From: Lysobacter sp.
Lineage (GTDB): Bacteria; Pseudomonadota; Gammaproteobacteria; Xanthomonadales; Xanthomonadaceae
DNA length: 64,000 nt
Assembly: GCA_013141175.1 (NCBI GenBank)
Contig: JABFRN010000001.1
Location: 3,616,001 to 3,680,000, forward strand
Direction: 5' to 3'
The position numbers and the translations under genes are program-made. The notes under the pieces were generated by a model. The model was given only the letters and a program-made list of their open reading frames with translations, did no database searches and was not told the DNA's origin. Below, in pieces: positions 43,579-45,009 of this stretch. Position 1 is the first letter of the stretch. Every line of letters begins with the position of its first letter.

Positions 43579-45009
43579 ATGCTCGATCCCGCCCTGCTGC
43601 GCACCCAACCCGCCGAACTGGCCGCCCGCCTCAAGGACACCCGCGGTTACGATCTGAACGTCGCCGACCTGCTGCTGCTCGAAGCCGAGCGCAAGCAGAT
43701 CCAGGTGCGCACCCAGGAACTGCAGAATCTGCGCAATACGAAGTCCAAGCAGATCGGCATGCTCAAGGCCAAGGGCGAGGACGTGTCGGCGGTGATGGCC
43801 GAGGTGGCGGCATTCGGCGAAGAGTTGAAACAGTGCGAGGCTGACCTGGCCGATCGGCTTGCGAAGATCAACGCGATCGCTGCGGGCCTCCCGAACCTGC
43901 CGCACGACTCGGTGCCGGCCGGTAAGGACGAACACGACAACGTCGAACAGCACCGCTGGGGCACGCCGCGCGCGTTCGATTTCGAGGTCAAGGATCACGT
44001 CGCCCTCGGCGAGCGCCACGGCTGGCTGGACGGCGAAACCGCCGCCAAGCTCAGCGGCGCGCGCTTCACCGTGCTGCGCGGCCAGCTGGCGCGCCTGCAC
44101 CGCGCGCTGGCGCAGTTCATGTTGGATCTGCATACCGGCGAGCATGGCTACGAAGAGACGAATGTGCCGCTGCTGGTGAATGCGGATTCGATGCGGGGGA
44201 CGGGGCAGTTGCCGAAGTTTGAGGAGGATTTGTTTTCGACTGTTGAAGTTAAACCAGCTATTGGGGAAATTAAATCAGCTGTAGACAATAGATCCGCTCA
44301 AGAGCGATTGATTAATCAGACTCTGGATGTCATGCGGCTTACAGAATCCTTCCAATCTGGTATTGATCTCTATGAAAATCTAAAGAACTTTGTCAAGTCA
44401 AACGTTCAGTACTACCTCATCCCCACCAGCGAAGTCCCCCTCACCAATATCGTCCGCGACGAAATCGTCGACGCAGAAAAAATGCCGATGCGCATGACCG
44501 CGCATTCGATGTGCTTCCGCGCCGAGGCCGGCAGCGCCGGGCGCGATACGCGCGGGATGATCCGCCAGCACCAGTTCGAGAAGGTCGAGCTGGTGACCAT
44601 CGCCAAACCCGACGAGAGCGACGCCGAGCACGAGCGCATGACCCGCTGCGCCGAGACCGTGCTGGAAAAACTCGGCCTGCCGTACCGCAAGGTGCTGCTG
44701 TGCAGCGGCGACATGGGTTTCTCTGCGCGCAAGACTTACGACCTCGAAGTCTGGTTGCCCTCGCAGAATACCTATCGCGAAATTTCTTCCTGCTCGAACT
44801 GCGGCGATTTCCAGGCCCGGCGGATGCAGGCGCGCTGGCGCAATCCCGCGACCGGCAAACCGGAACTCGTGCATACGCTCAACGGCTCCGGCGTCGCCGT
44901 CGGCCGCGCGCTGATCGCGGTGATGGAGAACTACCAGAACGCCGATGGCTCGATCACCGTGCCCGAAGCGCTGCGCGGCTACATGGGCGGCGCCGAGCGC
45001 ATCGCCTGA
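43579..45009 (+). CDS. serS: seryl-tRNA synthetase with AT-rich in-frame insertion
   Basis: The 476-residue protein is SerRS, which charges tRNA-Ser. It has the N-terminal coiled-coil arm, then the class II core with [20 protein letters not shown] (motif 2) and [19 protein letters not shown] (motif 3). Normal bacterial enzymes have about 425-430 residues; the excess sits between LPKFEEDLF and [11 protein letters not shown], about residues 216-275. That stretch is coded by DNA of only 39% GC, while the flanks are rich in G and C. All catalytic motifs are kept, so the enzyme is probably active. No other serS is in the window. Confidence 0.95.
44221..44405 (+). other. AT-rich insertion within serS
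   Basis: A hand count over 44221-44400 gives 70 G/C in 180 bases. The frame stays open and codons such as AAA, ATT, GAA and TTA-like forms replace the host's G/C-ending ones. A 12-base imperfect direct repeat lies at 44249-44260 and 44270-44281 (TTAAACCAGCTA and TTAAATCAGCTG, two differences). The 5' border is blurred: codons from about 44180 on already shift to GGG, TTG and TTT. The segment encodes mostly helical, polar residues. Confidence 0.85.

Follow-up and report, generated by a model that had tools for sequence, protein, structure and literature searches.

Alleles of a possible exchangeable insertion domain: an AT-rich in-frame segment in the seryl-tRNA synthetase of a Lysobacter sp.

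Why should a seryl-tRNA synthetase (SerRS) carry 46 additional residues, encoded by AT-rich DNA, at a site that its nearest relatives either leave short or fill with unrelated sequence? Aminoacyl-tRNA synthetases are textbook cases of slow, constrained evolution and are used as phylogenetic markers, and the near-complete turnover of one SerRS site between sister species, with flanks and catalytic motifs intact, calls for a cause. The question is raised by the serS gene in a 64,000-nucleotide stretch of a Lysobacter sp. genome (hereafter the window; assembly GCA_013141175.1, contig JABFRN010000001.1, positions 3,616,001 to 3,680,000), in which an earlier sequence-only reading had pointed out an in-frame insertion. 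Our answer, put forward tentatively, is that the segment represents one of many alleles of a SerRS insertion domain that is hypervariable, exchanged as a cassette and located at the site of insertion II of the human enzyme. The features on which the argument turns are the following:

43579..45009, forward strand: serS, encoding a seryl-tRNA synthetase of 476 amino acids, from the ATG of MLDPALL to TGA, with start and stop checked.
44236..44415, forward strand: the insert, residues S220 to Y279, 60 codons, in which guanine plus cytosine at third codon positions (GC3) is 0.37, against 0.86 in the rest of serS.
44243..44412, forward strand: 170 nucleotides in place of a 32-nucleotide ancestral loop, delimited by comparison with the short-loop genome G006, codon alignment and pairwise flanks.
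44180..44235, forward strand: conserved upstream flank, whose odd codons are native to the genus according to the codon alignment.
44416..44460, forward strand: conserved downstream flank with the TxE motif, which we take to be serine-binding, placed by alignment and motif check.

The product is a SerRS according to a curated model (TIGR00414, 533.5 bits against a cut-off of 301.65), contains the Pfam domains PF02403 and PF00587, and conforms to the class II seryl-tRNA synthetase fold. Its frame is open, and TxE, motif 2 and motif 3 are all intact, as had been stated. No other serS match exists in its genome, a single contig of 4,155,120 bases with 100% completeness. Compared with the 430-residue enzyme of G006, the closest relative found, the protein is 46 residues longer; the first proposal was 50 or so extra residues on a usual length of 425-430. 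The loop from LPKF to LIPT counts 65 residues here and 19 in G006 (EEDLFSTAVGEGEAASKRY); each of the 57 short-loop rows in our SerRS tree set has one of two lengths, 15 or 19. The insert itself is located between LPKFEEDLF and LIPTSEV; the GC content of 39% given for 44221-44400 was reproduced (0.389), the replaced tract at 44243-44412 has 0.382, and the whole window 0.657.

Alignment with related SerRS revealed that this site is hypervariable across the family, and the nearest relatives, instead of sharing one segment of normal composition, have none or have unrelated ones. Within the genus, serS was matched in 10 of 11 genomes, with loops of 19 residues in two and of 35-82 residues in eight, no two of which are alike (the gene of G003 lies at a contig end that is broken). 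For the family, serS was matched in 385 of the 395 genomes sampled, and inserts of at least 30 residues beyond the EEDLF stretch occur in at least 20 of them, a lower bound set by the matches listed and the loops read. A short-loop query on 148 genomes (144 matched) was split at the loop in 10, the near-full-length matches listed spanning 1260-1344 bases, and named records added two further inserts, in Xanthomonas sp. 3793 (loop same as in G124) and in a Luteimonas metagenome-assembled genome. The 210 pairs among 21 family inserts have a median identity of 23%, with only five reaching 40% and the best, L103/L168 from one genus, at 71%. Carriers nevertheless retain the catalytic motifs; four variants missing the strict pattern were read by eye, and the row of L011 is truncated. 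On a tree of 79 SerRS computed without the loop, the 22 rows with inserts require at least 15 gains or losses, the starred branches force at least nine changes, and the near neighbours L003 and L004 bear unrelated inserts.

This comparison shows that an ancestral loop of 15-19 residues has been replaced repeatedly by 30-79 in-frame residues, within the catalytic domain and between the strand that follows LPKFEEDLF and the strand with the TSE triad, leaving the flanks intact and with a replacing sequence that differs in nearly every species. An assembly chimera, which the sequence-only reading had considered, is barely credible as an explanation: the L011 locus of G003 does lie on a broken, inverted contig end, but the window comes from a closed-size single contig and inserts occupy the same codon in 20 independent family genomes. 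On contig C25 of that genome (L011, L015, L017), the gene runs at the contig end into its own inverted copy, probably an assembly artefact.

Beyond the family, long loops are found in two further families of the order. In f185, serS was matched in seven of nine genomes, all seven of which have an orthologous loop of 82-83 residues with host-like GC, and G801 has an AT-rich loop of 84 residues (the name Rhodanobacteraceae-like for its family, f186, rests on neighbours of named records in the tree and not on G801 itself). Among 25 class loci read outside the order, L140 (in G520) has a loop of 41 residues and the others have 12-22, and the loops of 37 further loci outside the family all count 13-21 residues. 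The L140 loop, from another family of the class, has a GC of 0.47 versus 0.57, and two congeneric genomes have 14 residues at this position.

The edges of the replacement bear on how it came about. Next to it, identity to G006 is 91% over 1496 nucleotides on the left and 95% over 600 nucleotides on the right, and in four pairs of an insert with a short loop (L007/L009, L019/L125, L102/L170, L167/L108) the 60-nucleotide blocks adjoining the loop are 0.85-1.00 identical. The codons at 44180-44235 had been described as unlike the host, but nearly all the unusual ones are also present in short-loop G006, so this flank was not imported. The idea of a foreign recombination tract is therefore upheld for the loop, precisely replaced by lower-GC coding DNA, and abandoned for the flanks, which are native. 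In the pairs L006/L007, L023/L100 and L102/L104, the proportion of synonymous differences (pS) is 0.70-0.83 in the inserts versus 0.32-0.52 in the flanks, meaning that the inserts are unrelated or far predate the genes around them, and either case implies exchange instead of inheritance with the gene. L006 and L007 also have in common a GDDLF variant directly before the insert, which suggests a serS gene as the donor. Replacement probably proceeds by homologous recombination or gene conversion between serS alleles, with the conserved codons on either side acting as arms, and the donors would form a large, mostly unsampled pool of lower-GC inserts.

Codon-position bias shows that the inserts, pooled, are truly coding and are read in the frame of SerRS (922 codons, with purine at 0.64 and G at 0.39 in position 1). 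Large inserts are about 33-50% hydrophobic and near neutral in charge, L006 (-7) being the exception, and the insert of the window is predicted to form helices at residues 228-235, 238-254 and 260-273. To this extent a real insertion domain, the last of the possibilities raised from the sequence, finds support in the coding character and domain-like make-up of the inserts, the helical model being of low confidence. Its position was related to the human enzyme by phmmer, which aligned residues 264-461 of 3vbb_A to residues 276-470 of the window SerRS, pairing residue 264 with 276.

A selfish in-frame element of the Rickettsia palindromic element type, an intein, a diversity-generating retroelement or a phase-variable cassette would also produce an in-frame insertion in an essential gene, and a mobile element had been suggested. 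We consider this very improbable, since the insert DNA and serS are both single-copy in the complete genome at E 0.001, where neither a template repeat nor a silent cassette nor a second copy was detected, and since the inserts have no common DNA. Inteins have splice motifs with terminal Cys/Ser and Asn; the insert begins with S and ends with Y, and Pfam found no domain in it. Searches with the insert sequence brought up no relative among plasmids, phages and viral contigs. As for the imperfect 12-base direct repeat noted inside the insert, it does exist (10 of 12 positions) and is attributable to chance, because 85 of 300 shuffles of the insert score 10 or more.

Searches for donors and relatives gave a similar picture. 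A serS borne by a plasmid or a phage was considered as donor and rejected, given identity bands all below 60% in 25 phage records with serS-like matches, only two of 100 plasmid records at 60-80%, and loops of 12-14 residues in the five read among 10 viral-contig serS loci. Among the plasmid records, E. coli entries of 74-88 kb have a complete serS in their annotation, which would be unusual if they truly are plasmids. Against Pfam, PHROGs, NCBIfam, PADLOC and PDB, the inserts gave nothing credible, weak matches above E 0.02 being deemed chance; none of 16 inserts matched PADLOC at E 1, a library limited to described defence systems. Run over 198 genomes, a profile of these 16 inserts recovered 11 serS inserts, with no other match below E 0.02, and since it missed genomes whose inserts lie outside the profile, it says little on distant relatives. 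In the comparison of f185 with f1 inserts, L232 scored 8.2 bits, against 5.6 for the best shuffle.

How often such replacements occur elsewhere in the genome was judged from the alignment of the window's genome (G000) with G006, covering 146 kb, of 464 kb and 480 kb, respectively. In-frame replacement inside a shared frame was seen twice in these 146 kb, in serS and in an AcrB-family open reading frame (ORF). The latter, L286:11617-15552, lies downstream of the window and has 357 nucleotides where G006 has 135. Low-GC dips within open frames do occur elsewhere in the 464-kb sample, as in the hybrid sensor-kinase ORF L187:1993-5673, where a stretch of 1,030 nucleotides falls to a GC of 0.32 within a GC-rich frame, and in an ORF of L200 that has no Pfam match.

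Substitutions bear on what maintains the inserts. In the one clear orthologous pair, L103/L168, the insert has a ratio of nonsynonymous to synonymous rates (dN/dS) of 1.12, against 0.17 and 0.04 for its two flanks, a difference in nonsynonymous and synonymous counts (N/S) that is significant by Fisher's test (p 5e-6). Six pairs of f185 inserts have dN/dS values of 0.15-0.46, versus 0.06-0.23 in the flanks; in f185 one version of the insert has been kept and evolves under purifying selection.

The main rival to our reading is a permissive loop under neutral turnover, in which scraps of foreign coding sequence are caught, drift and are lost without ever acquiring a function. It fits the ratio of 1.12 in L103/L168, the patchy presence of inserts and their absence from close relatives, as well as the finding, in the part of PMC10817482 that concerns human insertion II, that an insertion at this same site hardly affects aminoacylation. 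Yet the constraint in f185 argues against it, as does the scarcity of comparable events in the 146 kb aligned, and we regard it as unlikely, though a serious contender. A physiological domain that tunes tRNA-Ser charging, or binds a cellular partner such as tRNA, the ribosome or an enzyme and varies with it, would explain the f185 constraint and recall the added functions ascribed to eukaryotic SerRS insertions in the same part of that paper (PMC10817482); a conserved partner is, however, incompatible with a median identity of 23% and with absence in sister species, which makes this account quite unlikely.

Resistance to a small-molecule SerRS inhibitor, for instance albomycin or another Ser-AMP mimic, is suggested by the albomycin warhead, which targets SerRS according to the relevant section of PMC7916415, and by the closeness of the loop to the active site of the human enzyme in PMC10817482, as excerpted. 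The same section of PMC7916415 has such inhibitors binding invariant motif 2 residues, motifs that the carriers keep, and point changes or a second serS would suffice, one drug needing no 20 different domains. We consider this explanation improbable.

Returning to the exchanged insertion domain, it is possible that each insert forms a helical module, small and exposed at the surface close to the active site, which does not impair aminoacylation and would be both retained and turned over because it alters the grip of an antagonist on SerRS. The antagonist would be a phage or rival-bacterium protein that binds SerRS, and the module a target-site or decoy polymorphism under diversifying selection. 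An arms race with such an antagonist is our best guess for the driver, because the module is hypervariable, patchy and on the surface of an otherwise conserved enzyme. More doubtful is the bolder proposal that SerRS stands at a front line of conflict, where a swappable module decides whether phage or rival proteins bind, so that an essential cytosolic enzyme would evolve like a surface antigen through cassette exchange from a large shared pool.

Several observations weigh against the favoured reading. A dN/dS close to 1, seen in just one pair, is as compatible with neutrality as with diversifying selection, pS in poorly aligned pairs may merely reflect unrelated inserts, and two of the six f185 pairs have a raised N/S in the insert relative to the flanks (p about 0.011). 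The insert label is more clustered on the tree than chance predicts (3 of 500 shuffles as low), and most species of the family do well without an insert. Foreign-looking flank codons, expected at import edges, are clear in few cases, namely L098 and L101, where GC3 drops to 0.50 in the 20 codons upstream and downstream of the insert, respectively. The predicted model has a local confidence (predicted local distance difference test, pLDDT) of just 51-67 over the insert. Finally, no insert relative outside serS was detected, by searches that are weak for so variable a sequence, and neither an antagonist nor a donor or partner gene came to light.

The window has one more region as poor in GC, near 53415 and beside a tRNA-Ser gene. 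This tRNA-Ser(UGA) gene occupies 52928-53017; AT-rich DNA (0.44) extends precisely from its 3' end to 53880, and G006 has 1224 nucleotides of other DNA in its place. An orphan ORF here, at 52990-53700, was found in one of 11 genus genomes, and 52928-53880 has the appearance of an integration scar at a distance of 8.5 kb from serS. The AT-rich gene was considered as a partner of serS and rejected on account of its presence in just that one genome. At 61370-62372, about 1 kb is present in the window and absent from G006, with a seamless junction.

A pattern usual in arms-race proteins is met here in the highly conserved enzyme that loads serine. If an antagonist is responsible, there should be an undescribed class of phage or bacterial proteins that target SerRS, for which a panel of inserts would be a fishing tool; if turnover is neutral, the inserts measure how much foreign protein an essential active-site loop tolerates. 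In either case, protein engineering gains an insertion site at which nature has tested some 20 payloads, and the loop should be masked in serS alignments within the order.

Lineage-specific insertion in a synthetase is an established kind of event. Insertion II of human cytosolic SerRS, found in higher eukaryotes, spans G254-N261 in the account excerpted from PMC10817482, and it occupies the same fold position, in the same loop between the LPKF region and the TxE strand. It is a short, conserved element of eight residues, whereas inserts of the window type have 30-79, are patchy, unrelated between species and exchanged. Within the same order, a survey of 26 genomes describes conserved signature indels of the Xanthomonadales, for example an 18-residue insert in GlnRS, which is likewise an insertion in an aminoacyl-tRNA synthetase; these are inherited and order-wide, unlike the serS inserts, and in the portions consulted the survey uses SerRS as a phylogenetic marker and lists synthetase indels, none of them in SerRS (PMC3568101). 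No report of such SerRS inserts appeared in the literature searched, which was mainly open-access.

Rickettsia palindromic elements also place extra in-frame peptides in housekeeping genes, but they are repeated and alike across one genome, while the serS inserts are single-copy and all different. Host aminoacyl-tRNA synthetases can be phage targets, as illustrated by a factor of phage T4 that reportedly modifies host ValRS (attributed to Muller and Marchin, 1977); for SerRS, to our knowledge, no such factor has been described, and the present searches met none. Closest in pattern are the exchangeable variable domains under diversifying selection in surface antigens, restriction specificity subunits and toxin-immunity modules, with which the serS inserts share conserved flanks, a hypervariable low-GC middle and recombinational replacement. 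Those domains belong to surface, defence or toxin proteins, whereas SerRS is a cytosolic, essential housekeeping enzyme.
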